Below are positions 2,736 to 20,852 of a stretch of 33,216 nucleotides of DNA, piece after piece. Both the position numbers and the translations under genes were made by a program. Below the pieces are notes generated by a model. It was given only the letters and a program-made list of their open reading frames with translations. It made no database searches and had not been told where the DNA came from. Every line of letters starts with the position of its first letter. Position 1 is the stretch's first letter. This DNA is from a virus: positions 1 through 33,216 of the IMG/VR virus record IMGVR_UViG_3300028840_001872. The stretch is one strand, 5' to 3'.

Positions 2736-4025
2736 TCACTGGTCCCCATAACCACGATACACATACACCACGTCTCCCTCTGAATCTACCCCACTCGGCC
2801 ACAGCGCACCGCCAAAGTACCGATACGGAGACTTGGCCTCGTTGGGGCTGTTCCAGTAGTACCGGATCAGGTCGAACATCGTGTAGTGGTAGAACCGCGC
2901 ACGCTGGGACGGGGAGCCCCGCACGAGGTTCACCGCCTCCACCGCACGCAGCGTCCGGAAGCACGGCAGGATGTGATCGCGGATATCGCTGAAGTGTACC
3001 TCTCCGCACCGCCGCGCTATTACGATCGCCTCAGTGAACTGGCCCCGGTGATACTTCGCCGTCTCCGGGAGCCCACAGCACGAGCCGTTGAAACACCGGT
3101 CCTTGTGATGGGCGTCGGAGACGTAAAACCGGAGCCGGAGCCGTCGGCAAAGCGCTTCCATCTTGTCGACGTAGGGTTGTTTGATCTTCGGGTTGAGCCG
3201 CATATAGCCAGTCGCGTTCGGGGTGTTCCGGCGGTAGAAGTCGACGATATCAATTCCCAGCGCCTCCGATATCCGATCGAACCGCGCACGACCGTCCTTC
3301 GTCATCCGCCGCTCCACGCAGAAGAACTCCGTAGAGACGGCCCGAGCTCCCGCCGCCGCCGCGCGGCGTATCAGCTCCAGGTATTCGTCCCCTACGTCCG
3401 ACAGCCCAATGATGAACGGTCGGAGCCGAAGCGTTACCGGGACCCCTACCGCCGCCAGCGTCTCCAGCGCCTCCAACCGCTCCTCCGGCGACGGACAGCC
3501 CATCTCAATCGCGCGGGAGCGGTCCCGATCGAGATTGATGATGCTGTATTTCATATTCCAAATATCCCGGTTCCGCGCAAATAGCGTCATATACCGATCG
3601 TCCTCTGTCCACCAAGTGCCCTTCGTGCTGAAGCAGACCGGATACCGGAGCTCCGCGAACAGCTCCAGCAGCTGGAGCCCAACGCCCATCTGACGTTCAA
3701 ACTCATCAAACGGGTCCGAGAGCCCACCCCACTGCATCCAGTACCGATCCGCAATGTACTGGCTGAACATGTTGTTGGTCTCTCCCCGGAACAGCTTGCC
3801 CAGTGCTTCCACGTTGACCGGGTCCGGCCTCTCCTCCGTGTACAGCTTGCGAGTGCCCCCGCTGTTCAGGAGCCAGTTCAGGTGCCGGATGCCCCGTTGG
3901 AAAAAGCTGAAGCAGTACAGGCAGTTGTAGCTGCACCGGGAGTATTGGTCAAACGTCATCGGCATTGAACAGTCCAGCACTTCCCCGGTCCATCTCGGTG
4001 AGCCGTAGAATCTCTGTTTGGTCAT
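2736..4025 (-). CDS. Radical SAM protein, first of two (hypermodification candidate)
   Basis: It has the radical SAM cluster motif C31-S-Y-N-C35-L-Y-C38-F (CxxxCxxC), which binds a [4Fe-4S] cluster and S-adenosylmethionine to start radical chemistry. Later parts resemble the spore photoproduct lyase/COG1533 group: the strand K-Y-S-I-I-N-L near 161 and the F-I-I-G-L-S-D loop near 213. The C-terminal third has more cysteines (D-R-C-F-N-G-S-C-C near 315), possibly an auxiliary cluster. The ATG at 4025 follows GGGAGGACTGA and overlaps the kinase stop. It shares a string with a kinase and a base-transferase candidate, so I infer a step in thymine hypermodification. DNA photoproduct repair is the main alternative. 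Confidence 0.8.
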   Translation of the reverse strand: MTKQRFYGSPRWTGEVLDCSMPMTFDQYSRCSYNCLYCFSFFQRGIRHLNWLLNSGGTRKLYTEERPDPVNVEALGKLFRGETNNMFSQYIADRYWMQWGGLSDPFDEFERQMGVGLQLLELFAELRYPVCFSTKGTWWTEDDRYMTLFARNRDIWNMKYSIINLDRDRSRAIEMGCPSPEERLEALETLAAVGVPVTLRLRPFIIGLSDVGDEYLELIRRAAAAGARAVSTEFFCVERRMTKDGRARFDRISEALGIDIVDFYRRNTPNATGYMRLNPKIKQPYVDKMEALCRRLRLRFYVSDAHHKDRCFNGSCCGLPETAKYHRGQFTEAIVIARRCGEVHFSDIRDHILPCFRTLRAVEAVNLVRGSPSQRARFYHYTMFDLIRYYWNSPNEAKSPYRYFGGALWPSGVDSEGDVVYVYRGYGDQ

Positions 4026-4597
4026 TCAGTCCTCCCTGCAAATATGAAAGTGGCACACAGGCCAATCACCCGCTCAAAATCGGCCTCGGTGTCAAACCGG
4101 ACCGTGGTGATGTCGCCCCGGCTCCGTATCATGTTCATGTATTTAGTGTCCCGGCCGCGCAGGAATGTTTCTGTCTGATTCACGGAGCCTCTTGCGGCCC
4201 TCCGCGCAGCCAGCACTGAGGGAGTCACCCACAGGACCAAGTGCAACCGCTCCTGCGCCTGCAGCCCATCCAAGAATGAATCGCAGAACAGCCGGTCACC
4301 CTCAAACACCACGGTGTCATCGGCATTGCTGAGCCCATTCAGAAAGTACAGCGCATCCTCGTGGACGGCCATGGACAGCCGATCGGTCCCGGCGAACTCT
4401 CCCGCCTCCGGATCGTAGCGTCCAAGGAAGTAGATGAGATGGCCCTGGGCGGGGCCGTTCGTCACCTCGGCCATATGGAACTCCAGCGCTCTCATCTTCC
4501 GGACCGTCCCGACCGCCGCACAACGCTTCACGAGCTCCGCCACCAGTGTCGTTTTTCCCGTCGCCGGGGCTCCCCCGATCGCCAGTAGTCTAGGCAT
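4022..4597 (-). CDS. P-loop kinase, possible 5-hydroxymethyluracil DNA kinase
   Basis: A Walker A loop G-G-A-P-A-T-G-K-T lies at residues 8-16. The middle has G-R-Y-D with G-T-D-R-L-S-M, then V-V-F-E-G-D-R-L-F as a Walker B-like strand, and a later R-x3-R-R-A-A-R lid-like stretch. This is the build of small nucleotide or polynucleotide kinases (AAA_33/HMUD-kinase-like). In phages with hypermodified thymine, a P-loop kinase phosphorylates 5-hydroxymethyluracil in DNA so that a transferase can replace the phosphate. The neighbouring transferase-like gene makes this a good fit, but it remains inferred. The start has GGGAG eight bases upstream, and the stop overlaps the radical SAM gene by four bases. 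Confidence 0.7.
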   Translation of the reverse strand: MPRLLAIGGAPATGKTTLVAELVKRCAAVGTVRKMRALEFHMAEVTNGPAQGHLIYFLGRYDPEAGEFAGTDRLSMAVHEDALYFLNGLSNADDTVVFEGDRLFCDSFLDGLQAQERLHLVLWVTPSVLAARRAARGSVNQTETFLRGRDTKYMNMIRSRGDITTVRFDTEADFERVIGLCATFIFAGRTE

Positions 4598-4826
4598 TGG
4601 TTTGTCTCCCTCGATAGAGAACGATCAACAAGAACAACGCTTCCTTGTAACTCCCGAAGCCGACCCGCTGGACGTTCCGGGGACAGAGTATCTCAACGCC
4701 CAACGGCACCCGATACCAACGCCGCACGCCCTTCCTTACTATACCGGTCCGCGCCTTCCCCCATAGCCAGAACCAACCGCGAATCCCCGGACGGCGTATG
4801 ACTTTGAACTTAGTGATTGGCTTCAA
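4590..4826 (-). CDS. Small basic protein, 78 aa, TTG start
   Basis: The TTG at 4826 overlaps the TGA of the transferase-like gene (TTGA) with GGAGGG just upstream; an upstream ATG in this frame lies inside that gene without such coupling. The product begins M-K-P-I-T-K-F-K-V-I and is rich in R, K, W and G, with a hydrophobic helix A-L-F-L-L-I-V-L-Y near the end. No family is recognised. Its location between kinase and transferase suggests an accessory or partner protein of the same pathway; that is inference from context. Confidence 0.55.
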   Translation of the reverse strand: MKPITKFKVIRRPGIRGWFWLWGKARTGIVRKGVRRWYRVPLGVEILCPRNVQRVGFGSYKEALFLLIVLYRGRQTNA

Positions 4827-5740
4827 GCAATCCCTCCCTCCATCGGACAAGCGGACGGCGGAACGTTATGTTCAACTTTTACTCCTCTCAACGTTCCCTT
4901 CAACTTATTGCGAACTCCACTCCAGCCCATCACCTCTCCGAGATACGATCGAGGGAAAGCGAAGCGCCGCGCCTCCCAATACACTCGGGGACAGGCGCTC
5001 AGATCCTCCATCTGTTTGTCGATGTCGTGCCCCACGTAGTACCGGCCGTGTACCAGGCTGTTGAAATCGCAAAGCGCCGTCTCCATCTCCTCCCACCCCT
5101 CCCACGGCACCTCGCACCGAAGGCAGTAGTTGTAAAACTCCTCCTGAAGCGCTCGGGACTTCGCGCACTCCCCCCACGGCCGTCCCGTCAACAGGGAGAG
5201 TCCTGGGACGGGTCCCGCGCATTTCCCCCCGCCGCCCAATCCGATATCCGGGGACGTGATCGAGCAGCCAAGGACGTTCCGCGACAGATCACACCACTTG
5301 AACGCCGCCCAACTCCCACAGTGAGGGAACGTCTGTACGTCTCGGTACAACGCCTCCCACCCGGCCATTCCTCCCGGCGCGGTCACCTCCTCCAGCCACT
5401 GGGAGAATGGCTTACGGTTCTGGATCATCCAATTCAGGAACTCCGCCGCCCTCTCCGCTCCACCCATACCCCGGAATCCCCGCCGTTCAACTCCCGTCGG
5501 CAGCGCTCTCAGCGAAGGGAACAATACCGCGTCCCTATTCACGCAAATCACAAGCTCTGCCGACCCGAGGTGATACCACGTCAGATAGAGCAGCGTGTGC
5601 CAGATGGCTTGTTCTCGGGTCATCGCCCGCATCCGCTGTACGTGATACAGGACGGGGTAGACCGGATCGATATCGCCGGACTCCTTGTGCTCGATGGCGA
5701 AGCGGATGAACGCCGGCATCAACGTTTCGTGGTACTTCAT
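4823..5740 (-). CDS. Putative thymine pyrophosphorylase/amino acid:DNA transferase, clade 2-like
   Basis: The first third, D-P-V-Y-P-V-L-Y-H-V-Q then E-Q-A-I-W-H-T-L-L-Y-L-T-W-Y-H-L-G-S-A, matches my recollection of the phage alpha-glutamyl/putrescinyl thymine pyrophosphorylase family, clade 2. Those proteins have a DNA-glycosylase-like fold and swap the pyrophosphate on 5-hydroxymethyluracil for an amino acid or amine. The rest holds a conserved-looking block H-C-G-S-W-A-A-F-K-W-C-D-L (about 140-152) and several more cysteines. ATGA coupling to the radical SAM gene upstream and the kinase gene two positions downstream support the role. I have not searched a database; an unrelated phage hypothetical is possible. 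Confidence 0.5.
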   Translation of the reverse strand: MKYHETLMPAFIRFAIEHKESGDIDPVYPVLYHVQRMRAMTREQAIWHTLLYLTWYHLGSAELVICVNRDAVLFPSLRALPTGVERRGFRGMGGAERAAEFLNWMIQNRKPFSQWLEEVTAPGGMAGWEALYRDVQTFPHCGSWAAFKWCDLSRNVLGCSITSPDIGLGGGGKCAGPVPGLSLLTGRPWGECAKSRALQEEFYNYCLRCEVPWEGWEEMETALCDFNSLVHGRYYVGHDIDKQMEDLSACPRVYWEARRFAFPRSYLGEVMGWSGVRNKLKGTLRGVKVEHNVPPSACPMEGGIA

Positions 5741-7074
5741 CGTGTCCTCCAGTACTCCCGCCGATAGTCCTCCGGCTTCAACGCGTGAGCCTCAGCTAGA
5801 TACGGCACACCGCAAGGAATATCCGATCCGCACGCCTCCCGACAGTACAGACAACCGCTCGGAGGACAGACGTCCCACGGGACAAATCGCCCCTCGTGCT
5901 TGATATGGATCGGGACCCGCTGCCCGTGACACTGATCGGCCGTCAAGAACCGAGGACCCATATTGACGCCGGTCTTGTCCATGATGTTCCCGGCCGCGTC
6001 ACGCTCATAGCAGAACTCAAAGCACAGCGACATTGTCACGCCGTTCATCTCGCACGCGTGCTTGTAGAGATTCAAACTCTCTACGCGGTAGCTCTCCCGG
6101 ATGTTGCGGACGTTCCCAATGTTCTCACACCAGAGCTCCGCGAACCGCTCCCAGCGATCCGGAAACAACCGCTTCATCCGGTACATCATCACTGGCGCGG
6201 CGCTCTCCACCATCTCCACGAACTTGAAGATCAAGTGATGAGCTCCGGCTCTCGCCAGCTGTCCGATGAGCTCCACGACCTGCTCCTGAGAGGTGATACC
6301 TGGGATGATCGGATCGACCTGAATGGAGATGTAGATGCCCTGATCGCGGAGCTCTCGGATCGATCGATACGTATCATCGAGGAGCGCCGCCCGGGGGCAG
6401 ATCTTCCGATGATCCTCCTGGTCGCAGGTGATGATACTGTATTGCATATAGCTGAACCGGCTCCGCTTCAGATACTTCACAGCCCAGTCCGGGGGAATCC
6501 GTCGCGTGAGATAGAAGATCGGAAGCCCGTAGGAGGTCAACACCTCACTGAGTTGCTCCACGTTGTGGTACACCTCCTCCAATGGCTGGAACGGCTCCGT
6601 GTATCCCGAGATATACGCCGCCCACCCAAAGTTCATCTCGCTCAGCTGTTTCTCGATCTTCACCGGATACTCCGGATCGACTACCGAGATACCTTGTCCC
6701 CGGTAGCCACGAACGCCGTTGTTGATGTAGCACATCACGCAGTTCAACGGGCAACGTCCACCGTAAGGCTGAGTGAGAAGCGCCTCAGTGTAGCAGGGAC
6801 GGGGCCGAACACCCTTGGGCTCTACTTTCGACTTGTACCAGCCACGCAGCGGAACGTTCTGATCCCGGATGACGTGGGGGGTGGGCTTGAGATACACGCG
6901 CATCGGCTTTCGATTTTCCGGCCGCGCGTTCCTCACCATCCCAATCAACCACTCCTCCCACACACCCTTCTCCGGATCGATCCCGCACTCTCCGGTTTTC
7001 ATCGGCAGCTCCGCACGGCAGAACTTTCGATACTTCCCGTCATCCCAAACGTCAATCGATTTGATAACAGGCAT
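5737..7074 (-). CDS. Radical SAM protein, second of two
   Basis: The cluster motif is C108-P-L-N-C112-V-M-C115-Y, after an unusually long N-terminal region of about 100 residues. The core then follows the COG1533/spore photoproduct lyase style: G-Y-T-E-P-F-Q-P-L-E near 150, Y-L-T-R-R, M-Q-Y-S-I-I-T and Q-V-D-P-I-I-P-G. Near the end a dense cysteine group (V-C-P-P-S-G-C-L-Y-C-R-E-A-C, then C-G) may hold an auxiliary iron-sulfur cluster, seen in several radical SAM enzymes that act on large substrates. The ATG at 7074 has GGAGGG five bases upstream; a GTG three bases earlier is possible. It lies next to the transferase-like gene, so the same pathway is inferred. Confidence 0.8.
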   Translation of the reverse strand: MPVIKSIDVWDDGKYRKFCRAELPMKTGECGIDPEKGVWEEWLIGMVRNARPENRKPMRVYLKPTPHVIRDQNVPLRGWYKSKVEPKGVRPRPCYTEALLTQPYGGRCPLNCVMCYINNGVRGYRGQGISVVDPEYPVKIEKQLSEMNFGWAAYISGYTEPFQPLEEVYHNVEQLSEVLTSYGLPIFYLTRRIPPDWAVKYLKRSRFSYMQYSIITCDQEDHRKICPRAALLDDTYRSIRELRDQGIYISIQVDPIIPGITSQEQVVELIGQLARAGAHHLIFKFVEMVESAAPVMMYRMKRLFPDRWERFAELWCENIGNVRNIRESYRVESLNLYKHACEMNGVTMSLCFEFCYERDAAGNIMDKTGVNMGPRFLTADQCHGQRVPIHIKHEGRFVPWDVCPPSGCLYCREACGSDIPCGVPYLAEAHALKPEDYRREYWRTR

Positions 7075-7289
7075 CACTTCCCTCCCCGAGTCTTGCGGAG
7101 CCGGACCATATACTTGTGGAACCGATCGTACACCTCCTCCGGAAATGTAGAGGTGAACCGCATCGCATTCTTGTCCGTGAGCCGCGTGTGCTTTTCGATC
7201 TCCAACAGGAGCGCTTGAGCCTCATCGCGTTCCGCTTCGGCCCTGACTACGTCCTGCTGTAAGAGATCAATCGCTTCCTCATATTTCAT
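7074..7289 (-). CDS. Small coiled-coil protein, 71 aa
   Basis: The ATG at 7289 follows GGAGGTGAGGA. The first half is a charged helix with heptad character (A-I-D-L-L-Q-Q-D-V-V-R-A-E-A-E-R-D-E-A-Q) and the second half is basic (F-H-K-Y-M-V-R-L-R-K-T-R). Its stop overlaps the start of the radical SAM gene. No known domain is apparent. It may be a small adaptor or regulator of the cluster, or simply an early accessory protein. Confidence 0.6.
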   Translation of the reverse strand: MKYEEAIDLLQQDVVRAEAERDEAQALLLEIEKHTRLTDKNAMRFTSTFPEEVYDRFHKYMVRLRKTRGGK

Positions 7290-14864: not shown

Positions 14865-15748
14865 CTCAACTCTTTGAACAGCTCTCGCTTGTGATACTTT
14901 CCGCGCTCCCCCGCCACGCACAGATCAACGTAATCACACTGGTAGCAAGAGGACTGATTGCGGAACGGTACCTGATGGCCACAAAGGATTCTCTCCACAT
15001 ACGCCAGTTTCATCAGGAGCTCTGTCTCGAACTCATCCCGATCCCGGATCGTGAACTTGATCGGGAAGCGGTGAAAGAAGTGAGAGCGGTTCCGGCTGAT
15101 CTCCTTTCGGAGCCGTTCCTTGTATTCCAGGAGTCCTTCTCCGAGGTGAGGCCTGGTCCCTGGGTTCCGGATAATATTGTACGTGACGCCTCGGAGCCGT
15201 TGACCCTTCCACGCCTCCCACGCGAGGAGGTAGAGCTGGATCTGGAAGTCGATCGCCAACAACCTCATCAACCGGTCCTCGATGATCTTTCCCCGCGTCT
15301 TGTGTTCCATGATCCACTGAGCACCCTTCTTGTCTACGTAGAGCGCGTCAATCTTCCCCCGGAGTCTGTACCCCATCCAATCGAGTTCAAACACCATCTC
15401 CGCGTCCATCCAGACCTTTCCGCTGAACTCCTCGGGACGCGCAATCACGTATTCATCCATCACGGCTTCGGCTTTCGCCAAATCGAGCTCCACCGCTTCG
15501 TCATCCAGATGGAGCCCCAGCGACAACTCCTCCCGCGCCTCCTCCAGATACGCCGCGACGCACTCCGGCCCCGTTCCCCGGCCCCGGTGCATCTGTTCCA
15601 GGACGTAGTGAACGATGTTCCCGAAGCGCACCCGATCCTCCACGCTGTTCTCCTCCCACTCCAGCGCGAACAGTCCCATCATCGGACAGTTGAGGAAGTT
15701 GTTGATCATCGACTGGGTGATCCCGTCACGGCGCATTGAATACTTCAT
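14861..15748 (-). CDS. Cas4/RecB-like PD-(D/E)XK nuclease with iron-sulfur cysteines
   Basis: The nuclease core shows D134 in R-G-K-I-D-A-L and E148-H-K150 after W-I-M, the D...ExK catalytic set. Q169-I-Q-L-Y matches the QxxxY motif of the RecB/AddB/Cas4 family. Four cysteines, C21 near the N-terminus and C268, C271 and C277 near the C-terminus, are placed to hold a [4Fe-4S] cluster as in Cas4 and AddB. It likely resects DNA ends to feed the Sak4-like ATPase and ssDNA-binding protein encoded directly downstream. The start has AGGAGG ten bases upstream; its TGA overlaps the next GTG. Confidence 0.85.
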   Translation of the reverse strand: MKYSMRRDGITQSMINNFLNCPMMGLFALEWEENSVEDRVRFGNIVHYVLEQMHRGRGTGPECVAAYLEEAREELSLGLHLDDEAVELDLAKAEAVMDEYVIARPEEFSGKVWMDAEMVFELDWMGYRLRGKIDALYVDKKGAQWIMEHKTRGKIIEDRLMRLLAIDFQIQLYLLAWEAWKGQRLRGVTYNIIRNPGTRPHLGEGLLEYKERLRKEISRNRSHFFHRFPIKFTIRDRDEFETELLMKLAYVERILCGHQVPFRNQSSCYQCDYVDLCVAGERGKYHKRELFKELR

Positions 15749-16262
15749 GGCGCTCCAACCTCCTGTGAACCGCCTCCAGCATCCGGATCGCCTTCCACCA
15801 GTCAGGGGAAGTCTCCGATCCGGTCCGGAGAAGGTATGAGGGATGATAGCATTTCACTGCGTAAGGAAACTCACGGCCGTAGTACCGTTGCGCGATCTCC
15901 CCGAGGAGCACCACCGCTTTCGGCCGCGCCTCCTCGATCACGCATCGCACGTTCGCCATACACATCAGTACTTCCTCAGACAACGGCTCTCGGTTCGGCG
16001 CGATTCTCCCTTCGCACGGCCGACACATTACAACGTTCGTAATGTACAAGCGGTACCGATCGAGGTTCGCTGCTAGGTTCATCCGGTCCAAGAGCTTTCC
16101 CGCGCGGCCGTGGAACGCTATTCCAGTCAGATTCTCCGTCCGGCCGGGAGCCTCACCGATCTCCAACACATCGCACGGCAGCTCTCCCCGTCCCCGCACG
16201 ACATAGCGCCGGAACTCCCAGAGCCCGCACCGCCGGCAATGCTCCAATCGTCTACGTTTCAC
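15726..16262 (-). CDS. Uracil-DNA glycosylase, family 4, 178 aa
   Basis: It removes uracil from DNA. Motifs: N-terminal C9-R-R-C12 and later C80 and C101 for the iron-sulfur cluster; G-E-A-P-G (36-40) with G-x-A-F-H-G-R-A-G; Y-I-T-N-V-V with C-R-P; V-V-L-L-G; and the leucine loop H140-P-S-Y-L-L. The GTG at 16262 follows GGAGGTGTT and overlaps the previous TGA (GTGA), so a longer upstream frame is rejected. Having a uracil glycosylase in a phage that may carry modified thymine is notable, since uracil or 5-hydroxymethyluracil intermediates may occur. Confidence 0.9.
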   Translation of the reverse strand: MKRRRLEHCRRCGLWEFRRYVVRGRGELPCDVLEIGEAPGRTENLTGIAFHGRAGKLLDRMNLAANLDRYRLYITNVVMCRPCEGRIAPNREPLSEEVLMCMANVRCVIEEARPKAVVLLGEIAQRYYGREFPYAVKCYHPSYLLRTGSETSPDWWKAIRMLEAVHRRLERHEVFNAP

Positions 16263-16735
16263 AACACCTCCAACAACGAGAGTCCCAACCCAACCGCCTC
16301 CCGCGTATGCTCCGGGAACCGGACCCCGTTGCCCAGTGCGCGCTCGATCCGGAGCTCCAGCGCCTTCTTGTTGAGTCCGCCCTTCCACTCCCTCGGCATC
16401 CGGATAATGAACGCTGGGGAGAGCGCCGCGTATCCTCCGACCAGATACGACAACAGCTGGAGAGCTCCGGAGGCGGAGGAGACGCGCGATTGCGCCGTGC
16501 CCCAATCCTCAGTTCCCTCGATGATGACGAAGTTGAGAGGCTTGCACCACTCAACGAGGCGTTGGAACTGGCTGTACATCTCCTTCAGCCGTTGCTCCAA
16601 TCCCATCTCAGCCTTCGGCGCATGGAAGATTCCGGTGAACTTCGGATCCAGCTGATCTCCCTCTCCCCAGTAGGCCCATCCCGTATTCACACCGGGATCG
16701 ATCGCCAGGAAATTATGAATGAACTGCCGAGCCAT
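16259..16735 (-). CDS. RuvC-like Holliday junction resolvase, 158 aa
   Basis: It has the RNase H fold signature L-A-I-D13-P-G-V-N-T-G-W at the N-terminus, the second acidic strand F-V-I-I-E73-G, and a C-terminal motif E-H-T-R-E146-A-V-G-L-G resembling the H-x2-D-A-x-G of RuvC. The length suits RuvC-like phage resolvases. It would cut branched DNA during recombination or before packaging. The start has GGAGGAGGG close upstream; it overlaps the SNF2-like gene by 23 bases and its TGA overlaps the glycosylase GTG. Confidence 0.8.
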   Translation of the reverse strand: MARQFIHNFLAIDPGVNTGWAYWGEGDQLDPKFTGIFHAPKAEMGLEQRLKEMYSQFQRLVEWCKPLNFVIIEGTEDWGTAQSRVSSASGALQLLSYLVGGYAALSPAFIIRMPREWKGGLNKKALELRIERALGNGVRFPEHTREAVGLGLSLLEVL

Positions 16736-18856: not shown

Positions 18857-19398
18857 CGTACTACCTCCGTAGGTAAATGGACTGTGCTCTGGACTTCATC
18901 ACCCCAACGTTCCCACCCCGGCCGCTCCTCCCGCGCGAACAGTTCAACTCGGGGACTTGGCGCCACCGGATCGATCATCTCCCAGAATCGGTCCGGCTTG
19001 CGTGAGTGTTGCTTTGATCGCTCTCGGATGATATTGCGTGATTGGGAGCCGAACGGACGCGGATGGCCCCGAACCCCGACCAGACAGAGCTCCACCTGGC
19101 CCCGAAACCAGAAGCCCATCCCAAGGCGCTCCTTGTCCCAGAACAGCGCTGTCTTGTACCGGAATCCCCAAGCCTCTACCACACCCAGCGTCTCGTTGAG
19201 AATCGGAACAGTGACCCAGAGGAACAGCAATGCGTCCGCCGCGACGATCGACGGGACCGGGAGGCGCTTCACCTCCTCGGTTGTCATCGTCCGATACTGT
19301 TGGGCCGCGCCGCTTCGATGCGTTCCGCCGGTTGAACGGTTCCGGTAACGCCAGGGAGGGTCAGCCACAACAGTCCGAAAGCGGACCGCGCGGATCAT
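18853..19398 (-). CDS. MT-A70 family adenine methyltransferase, 181 aa
   Basis: It opens with R-T-V-V-A-D13-P-P-W16-R-Y, the catalytic DPPW of MT-A70/N6-adenine methyltransferases, followed by L-L-F-L-W-V-T and G-F-x3-K-T-A-L-F-W, all family marks. It would methylate adenine in phage DNA, perhaps to avoid host restriction. The ATG at 19398 overlaps the previous stop (ATGA). A much longer upstream frame exists but lies over the neighbouring gene and lacks a ribosome site there, so it is rejected. Confidence 0.9.
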   Translation of the reverse strand: MIRAVRFRTVVADPPWRYRNRSTGGTHRSGAAQQYRTMTTEEVKRLPVPSIVAADALLFLWVTVPILNETLGVVEAWGFRYKTALFWDKERLGMGFWFRGQVELCLVGVRGHPRPFGSQSRNIIRERSKQHSRKPDRFWEMIDPVAPSPRVELFAREERPGWERWGDEVQSTVHLPTEVVR

Positions 19399-19670
19399 TC
19401 CTCGGGAATGAATGGATTGAAGACGAACGGCGCGGTGATCGTCATGTCCCCCCGGTAGCGGCACGGGGTATCCGCGTCCGCTCCGCACAACCCGATCACT
19501 CCATCCGTTTCGTCCTCCATGCCCTGCTTCCCCTTGTTGCCCTTCGCAGGGGTCAGAGCCCGAGCGAACACGTTGGTGCGTTCGCTGCAAGCGACGGAGC
19601 CCGACGCCGTGTCCAGTCCGCAAGTGAGGATGCGGACCTTTTCCGCCTTCTGGGCGACGGAGAGTTTCAT
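19395..19670 (-). CDS. Unknown early protein, 91 aa
   Basis: It starts 8 bases after GAGGAGG and directly downstream of the promoter at 19709-19737, which makes it the first gene of that transcript. The product begins M-K-L-S-V-A-Q-K-A-E-K-V. It contains four cysteines (C17, C28, C62, C70) and a small, beta-rich pattern with many G, T and D residues. Being first after a strong promoter suggests an early function such as host interaction. No family is recognised. Confidence 0.6.
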   Translation of the reverse strand: MKLSVAQKAEKVRILTCGLDTASGSVACSERTNVFARALTPAKGNKGKQGMEDETDGVIGLCGADADTPCRYRGDMTITAPFVFNPFIPEE

Positions 19671-19708: not shown

Positions 19709-19737
19709 AACATACTGTGCGTCCCGTCGAAAGTCAA
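19709..19737 (-). promoter_or_regulatory. Early promoter P2 (sigma70 type)
   Basis: On the minus strand TTGACT (19737-19732) and TATGTT (19714-19709) are 17 bases apart. The core matches promoter P1 at 19 of 29 positions, including the spacer end GCNCAGTAT. A 21-bp box lies 52 bases upstream. It drives the 91-residue gene and the MT-A70 gene. Confidence 0.65.
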
Positions 19738-19770
19738 GCCGCTTTTCTTGAATCGTTCGCGTCTCTCCCC

Positions 19771-19950
19771 TTATCCATTGATCTCCGTACAGTTACCGTC
19801 CGCAGATTTTCTACGAATGCCCTGCTGAGGCGTGCGATCGGGATTGTGTAGATAGGTCGAACCGCACCGCCGGCAACGCCTCCACTCCGATCGACCGTCC
19901 CCGCGCCCAAGCACAGTGTGATCGTCGGAGTAGCAGATCGGACAATCCAT
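19771..19950 (-). CDS. Small zinc-ribbon protein, 59 aa
   Basis: The ATG at 19950 follows GAGAGGAGGTTGAT. The product begins M-D-C3-P-I-C6-Y-S-D-D and has a second knuckle R-R-C26-R-R-C29-G-S-T-Y-L, a standard two-knuckle zinc ribbon, then a polar tail. It likely binds nucleic acid or a partner protein. Another, longer frame over the same bases has no ribosome site and no domain and is rejected. The codons for its last dozen residues overlap the 21-bp upstream box of promoter P2, so coding and control sequences share this stretch. Confidence 0.7.
   Translation of the reverse strand: MDCPICYSDDHTVLGRGDGRSEWRRCRRCGSTYLHNPDRTPQQGIRRKSADGNCTEING
19790..19810 (-). promoter_or_regulatory. 21-bp upstream box of promoter P2
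   Basis: The minus strand reads AAAATCTGCG followed by GACGGTAACTG. The same 21-mer with two changes lies upstream of P1. Both sit exactly 52 bases before their -35 element. It is a likely binding site for an activator or repressor. Confidence 0.6.
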
Positions 19951-19951
19951 A

Positions 19952-20536
19952 TCAACCTCCTCTCTCTGCGCGTTTGGCGCACTCAGGACCGATCCCGCTC
20001 TCGATACTCTCCGGGACCGTCAAGCGCCGTCCGCAACGACAGCAGCGCCCCTCGTGCTGTATGATGTATCCCACCGGCAGCATCCCGCCCCAAACCACAC
20101 GACTCACTCCCCAATCGAACACTCGCACCGGCTTGCTGTCCGCTGGGAGGCGAGAGCCCTTTGTGAGTCGAAGTTTCCCCGCGTCCGGCCGATACGCTCC
20201 GAGGTAGGTGAAGGAGCTGGTGTTGTCGGGACCGGTGAGAAGATGAACAAAGTAGCTGGGGCCATAAATCCGGTTGAAGCCGGTGTTATTGACCTTCTGG
20301 ATACGGTAGGTATAGTGTTCGCCGCGAGGGTTGCTGATCGTGAAGACGGCGTGACCGCCGGTGAAGAACTCCCGGTTGGTGGTGATCTCGTGCTTCATGA
20401 AGACTCCTCTCCCCTCGGAGCTCCGGCGGAGCGCTTCCCGCGCTCCGTCCAGAGTCATCCCCTTATGAACAACGGCGTAAGCCAGGTTGCCGAGGACCCG
20501 ATCCCGAATCCCCGGATCGGTGATGATGAGATTCAT
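19952..20536 (-). CDS. DUF6011-type zinc-finger protein, 194 aa
   Basis: The C-terminal part, C-C-R-C-G-R-R-L then S-I-E-S-G-I-G-P-E-C-A-K, is the DUF6011 signature, a small zinc-binding module common in phages and actinobacterial proteins; its function is unknown. The middle (about 45-150) has beta-strand patterns (H-Y-T-Y-R-I-Q-K-V, S-Y-F-V-H-L-L-T-G) as in uncharacterised phage proteins. The ATG at 20536 follows GGAG and overlaps the stop of the tiny leader gene (ATGA), so it is chosen over a start 14 codons earlier. It is one of the first early genes. Confidence 0.75.
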   Translation of the reverse strand: MNLIITDPGIRDRVLGNLAYAVVHKGMTLDGAREALRRSSEGRGVFMKHEITTNREFFTGGHAVFTISNPRGEHYTYRIQKVNNTGFNRIYGPSYFVHLLTGPDNTSSFTYLGAYRPDAGKLRLTKGSRLPADSKPVRVFDWGVSRVVWGGMLPVGYIIQHEGRCCRCGRRLTVPESIESGIGPECAKRAERGG

Positions 20537-20592
20537 GCTATCTCCATATGGCGGAAAACGTCCGTGAGATGATCCCACATCTTCCGGTTCAC
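20533..20592 (-). CDS. 19-codon leader gene
   Basis: A GTG at 20592 follows AAAGGAGGCGGAC, the best ribosome site in the region, about 20 bases after the expected start of transcription from P1. It encodes M-N-R-K-M-W-D-H-L-T-D-V-F-R-H-M-E-I-A and its TGA overlaps the DUF6011 ATG (ATGA). It may only load ribosomes for the next gene, or act as a tiny regulator. Confidence 0.5.
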   Translation of the reverse strand: MNRKMWDHLTDVFRHMEIA

Positions 20593-20619
20593 CGTCCGCC
20601 TCCTTTCCTCTACACTCTA

Positions 20620-20648
20620 ATTATACTGCGCGCCTGTTCAAACTTCAA
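20620..20648 (-). promoter_or_regulatory. Early promoter P1 (sigma70 type)
   Basis: On the minus strand TTGAAG (20648-20643) and a perfect TATAAT (20625-20620) are 17 bases apart, and a strong ribosome site follows about 20 bases after the expected transcript start. It should drive the leader, DUF6011 and further early genes. Host RNA polymerase can read it. Confidence 0.75.
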
Positions 20649-20700
20649 GAACTATTTTACAGAAAGTCCGGGCGATCCGTATAACTGTATGTTATTGTAT

Positions 20701-20721
20701 CAGTTACCGTGAGCAGATTTT
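20701..20721 (-). promoter_or_regulatory. 21-bp upstream box of promoter P1
   Basis: The minus strand reads AAAATCTGCT followed by CACGGTAACTG, 19 of 21 bases as at P2, and lies 52 bases before the -35 element. It is in non-coding DNA here, which argues that the match at P2 is not due to protein coding. Confidence 0.6.
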
Positions 20722-20779
20722 TACAGATAGTTGATAGCATCAAGGAAACACAGATCGCCGGCCCCAATTTCCTGTGCGG

Positions 20780-20827
20780 AAAACAAAGGAGCCGGGACCA
20801 CCCCGAGGGGTGGCTGCCCCGGCTCCC
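20780..20827 (-). terminator. Rho-independent terminator of the late module
   Basis: On the minus strand GGAGCCGGG pairs with CCCGGCTCC, with an inner stem CCACCCC/GGGGTGG, followed by TTTGTTTT. It stands 26 bases after the last lysis-module gene and ahead of the early promoter. Confidence 0.85.
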
Positions 20828-20852
20828 GGAGGCAGCACGATGGCTGCGGGAA

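Follow-up and report, generated by a model that had tools for sequence, protein, structure and literature searches.

Among the closest described parallels is the phi29 protein p4, a phage-encoded activator that acts from upstream; its sites are inverted repeats, CTTTTT-15 bp-AAAATG, that lie between early and late promoters and partly over the early -35 elements (PMC3100819). In Escherichia coli, activator sites are commonest near -70 and -45 (PMC4280137). The coordination of phage promoters by distant upstream sites is a principle known already. The locus described here lies in a record of an uncultured bacterial virus, apparently incomplete, whose whole length of 33,216 bases is hereafter called the window and in which each of two predicted promoters is preceded by a nearly identical 21-bp box. 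As with phi29 p4, phage promoters would be coordinated by a phage-encoded regulator, here a putative one, placed upstream of the promoter; unlike the p4 sites, the box is asymmetric and lies 52 bp before the -35 element at each of two early promoters that point the same way, and no p4-like protein emerged from the window proteins scanned. The fixed distance upstream of a sigma-70 promoter likewise recalls class I activator sites of the CRP/Fis type, whereas the box is centred near -98 and in this differs from the class I sites of E. coli. The box resembles none of the sites with which it was compared by eye, among them the consensus sequences of CRP and FNR. The pair is new in sequence but illustrates a principle already known, and it does not amount to a new type of system.

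All recognised genes of the window are carried on the minus strand. Read from right to left, they comprise contractile-tail genes, an endolysin (phrog_894), a terminator, and an early-type block containing the DUF6011 gene, a zinc-ribbon-like ORF, a 91-aa ORF, and genes for an MT-A70 methyltransferase, helicase, nuclease, polymerase, primase, and DNA modification, where the names helicase, polymerase, and primase were given by likeness to such proteins together with the conserved neighbourhood. The tail sheath protein shares 53% identity with the sheath of Bordetella phage PBb002 and about 40% with those of Mu-like phages. The box/promoter pair sits at the junction of the lysis/tail genes and the early genes (Table 1), where a strong terminator separates the promoter region from the upstream lysis/tail operon and is followed shortly afterwards by the first box. 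We infer from this gene content that both promoters are early ones. The first ORF after the upstream promoter encodes only 19 residues; it has a strong ribosome-binding site, overlaps the start of the DUF6011 gene by ATGA, and is possibly a leader peptide for coupled translation.

Table 1. Features of the junction between the lysis/tail genes and the early-type genes, in window coordinates.
Feature	Position	Strand	Remarks
Intrinsic terminator that ends the lysis/tail operon, ahead of the first box	20785..20840	-	-39.6 kcal/mol, z -4.0
Upstream box of the first promoter, AAAATCTGCTCACGGTAACTG	20701..20721	-	intergenic
52-bp interval from box to -35, first promoter	20649..20700	-	not conserved (17/52)
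First predicted promoter core, TTGAAG-17-TATAAT	20620..20648	-	
19-aa GTG-start ORF, VNRKMWDHLTDVFRHMEIA	20533..20592	-	ribosome-binding site AAAGGAGG; overlaps the start of the next gene; coordinates read from sequence
DUF6011 protein (PF19474; phrog_20259)	19952..20536	-	main gene of the first promoter
59-aa zinc-ribbon-like ORF	19771..19950	-	second box in its C-terminal tail; sub-threshold Pfam CPxCG_zf
Upstream box of the second promoter, AAAATCTGCGGACGGTAACTG	19790..19810	-	inside the 59-aa ORF
52-bp interval from box to -35, second promoter	19738..19789	-	not conserved
Second predicted promoter core, TTGACT-17-TATGTT	19709..19737	-	
91-aa ORF, first gene behind the second promoter	19395..19670	-	no family, no relative found

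The two predicted promoters share the strand of the genes, sit in intergenic positions or at the end of a gene, and are each followed by ribosome-binding sites and genes. Their hexamers match the sigma-70 type (16–18 bp spacing) at 9/12 and 10/12 positions with spacers of 17 bp in both cases, and the -35 element is sub-consensus at each. A preliminary description of this DNA had reported that the cores agree at 19/29 bases, which we reproduce; this figure includes 11/17 of the spacer, an agreement beyond what the sigma-70 consensus alone explains. When the two regions were compared with the first base of the -35 element as anchor, the 21-bp boxes fell, as described, 52 bp before TTGACT (first base 19737) and TTGAAG (first base 20648), with 19/21 identical positions and a distance of 911 bp between them. 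Relative to an inferred start set 7 bp after the -10 element, the boxes extend from approximately -108 to -88. One of them had been placed in a coding region, and this applies to the second box, which corresponds to residues 47–54 of the 59-aa ORF, a likely coding region, and falls after its CxxC pairs. No third match to AAAATCTGNNNACGGTAACTG occurs in the window, even when 3 mismatches are allowed. Conservation is confined to these two blocks: the 52-bp intervals agree at 17/52 positions, the one third first noted, and the outer flanks show no homology (31/127 bp upstream of the box and 15/91 bp downstream of the core).

The claim that the two blocks and their spacing stand out from the sequence between and around them is borne out statistically (19/21 and 19/29 against 17/52). 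When both upstream regions were dinucleotide-shuffled 3,000 times, the best agreement was 15/21 if the offsets had to be equal and 18/21 if they were free. Of 34,297 promoter pairs taken from 11 contigs of related phages, 9 reached 16/21 and 1 reached 18/21, the highest value, and the next best pair among the window's own 12 promoter-like sites reached 13/21. Two boxes so alike, at one and the same distance from their promoters, are therefore well beyond chance, although the whole finding rests on two copies in one phage. A repeat at a fixed position of co-regulated promoters is the pattern that marks a distal regulator's site, and the boxes present such a repeat, at 19/21 and equal distance.

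Box and core recur in the same order and spacing, as they would after a past duplication of the promoter region, from which both could have been left by chance and without function. When the two 52-bp intervals are aligned with gaps, their similarity is borderline (P = 0.05), so that faint residual homology may persist there. Neutral decay, however, would be even, while identity here is 90% in the box, 33% in the interval, and at background outside. This sharp block structure disfavours a neutral duplication relic, and we regard such an origin as improbable.

A conserved core and a remote box at fixed spacing, with a diverged interval between them, instead fit a box-bound protein that works with RNA polymerase at a fixed helical phase. 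The preliminary description had proposed a regulator site acting at a distance, which is still the most natural reading of the pattern; neither a binding protein nor an independent copy in another phage was found to go with it. Our preferred interpretation, held at somewhat less than even confidence, is that the two early promoters are co-regulated and that the box near -98 is the putative site of one regulator, most likely a class I-type activator. Under this model, two host-type (sigma-70-like) promoters of like orientation would each drive one of two consecutive early gene blocks, and one sequence-specific DNA-binding protein, encoded by phage or host, would bind both boxes and switch both promoters together; as a class I-type activator, it would contact RNA polymerase across DNA of fixed length and phase. 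It is the imperfect -35 elements that make us lean towards activation. Two features speak against this model: the position near -98 is more distant than most activator sites, and the box lacks the dyad typical of most dimeric regulators. Scans of early proteins with Pfam and PHROGs recognised no transcription regulator of the DNA-binding kind; the record apparently lacks part of the genome.

The main rival to activation is that the box serves as a repressor operator, with a protein on both boxes, or on a box and a second site at the promoter, shutting off early transcription later in infection, for example through a DNA loop. CAGWWW hexamers are present in the boxes and at the -10 element of both promoters, and they (or their complement, WWWCTG) cluster around the first promoter at 20623–20729 (6 copies) and around the second at 19712–19808 (3 copies), where chance would give 0.32 in 150 bp; no place in the window is denser than the first of these clusters, as if further half-sites were located there. 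This hexamer pattern is post hoc and consists largely of the conserved blocks themselves. Direct blocking is also unlikely from a box so far beyond the footprint of RNA polymerase. A distant relative, G003 (L055, IMGVR_UViG_3300027790_000042), has operator-like repeats fused to its promoters, which adds some weight to repression. On balance we consider a repressor unlikely, if a serious contender.

The same relative bears on co-regulation more generally. In G003, nearly the same promoter, TTGACA-17-TATACT, occurs three times, at 5515–5575 and 6385–6550, with two of the copies in divergent orientation and with a long common flank, CTCGTTCAACTGTAAATAGAGTATACC, that looks like an operator. A second relative, G019 (L104, IMGVR_UViG_3300031673_000541), has at 18870–19630 two promoters 692 bp apart that have in common an A-rich upstream block, the core, and the spacer. 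Repeated phage-specific promoters are a general habit in this group of relatives, and by analogy only they support the interpretation of the window pair as co-regulated early promoters. As in the window, each of these phages has 2–3 promoters with a common spacer and flanking bases beyond the hexamers; their shared part, however, is continuous with the core, whereas the box of the window is set apart from the core by 52 bp, and the sequences are unrelated.

Two further readings connect the box with a phage polymerase or sigma factor, or with a host regulator. Phage polymerase promoters are about 20 bp long, asymmetric, and highly conserved within one genome, and the box resembles them in its length and asymmetry. 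It could be a second, tandem promoter for a phage RNA polymerase or an alternative sigma factor whose gene lies in the part of the genome that the record lacks. Yet there are two copies only in 33 kb, the proteins scanned yielded neither such an RNA polymerase nor such a sigma factor, and a separate promoter would have no need of an exact 52-bp distance; we think this very improbable. Marginally less probable again is the site of a host regulator used by the phage. Early phage promoters often rely on host factors, and the promoters of the window are host-type in appearance. Nevertheless, no box-plus-promoter match was found in 84,980 prokaryote species genomes, and in 398 Pseudomonadota genomes the box occurs within 1 mismatch at only 3 places, with about 2–3 expected by chance and hence no excess, although the host may be absent from that set or lie outside the phylum.

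The preliminary description had also proposed a search of related phages for the box and its spacing. No copy within 3 mismatches occurs in 15 records that are distant relatives or carriers of a related gene; a 16th record, contig L003, shares 99.98% identity with the window across 13 kb and brings no further information. The relatives to which primase homologues lead are distant phages with only 25–42% protein identity, a divergence at which an operator is not expected to persist, so the absence of the box from them is uninformative and does not refute its function. The shared promoter core was likewise sought in the distant relatives and not found. Queries with the baseplate, helicase, and 91-aa proteins returned no further relatives, and the collections searched, the annotated phage collection included, hold no close relative of this phage. 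Besides L003, exact matches to the box in other viruses are limited to three records of one unrelated lineage, and in these no promoter was found where one would be expected. Relaxing the combined pattern of box and promoter produced 4 more matches in viruses against an estimated chance expectation of roughly 9, and the pattern was rejected as a candidate signal.

If the proposed regulation is real, the 21-bp box as bait together with two natural promoters would provide a handle to the early regulator of a phage lineage for which the databases searched hold no close relative. More specifically, the locus could reveal a phage transcription regulator not described before, which acts on two same-direction early promoters from an asymmetric 21-bp site near -98 and whose recognition sequence differs from all known ones; the lineage, isolated within the collections searched, would probably also have hypermodified DNA. 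We offer this fuller description tentatively, as a possibility that is below even.

The position of the boxes at the lysis/tail-early junction, in the most AT-rich stretch examined, would also suit an element that serves replication or packaging or acts as RNA, and whose place upstream of the promoters is accidental. Such a coincidence leaves the equal distance to two promoters unexplained, and it seems to us the least probable of the explanations considered. A replication origin finds no support in the GC skew, the sign of which is unchanged across the region. A structured RNA element was also rejected: no Rfam match was obtained, and the folds predicted for the two box regions are not alike (z = -2.3 and -0.4).

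Elsewhere in the window, the minus strand at 2736–7077 encodes a radical SAM-like protein (sub-threshold) and a P-loop nucleotide kinase (PF18751), together with an amino acid:DNA transferase (PF18724, E 6e-11) and a radical SAM protein (PF04055). These genes are likely a DNA (thymine) hypermodification cassette. The phage also encodes, at 15726–16505 on the minus strand, a protein of the Uracil-DNA-glycosylase superfamily (PF03167, E 5e-26), which is of interest beside a possible modified-thymine pathway.
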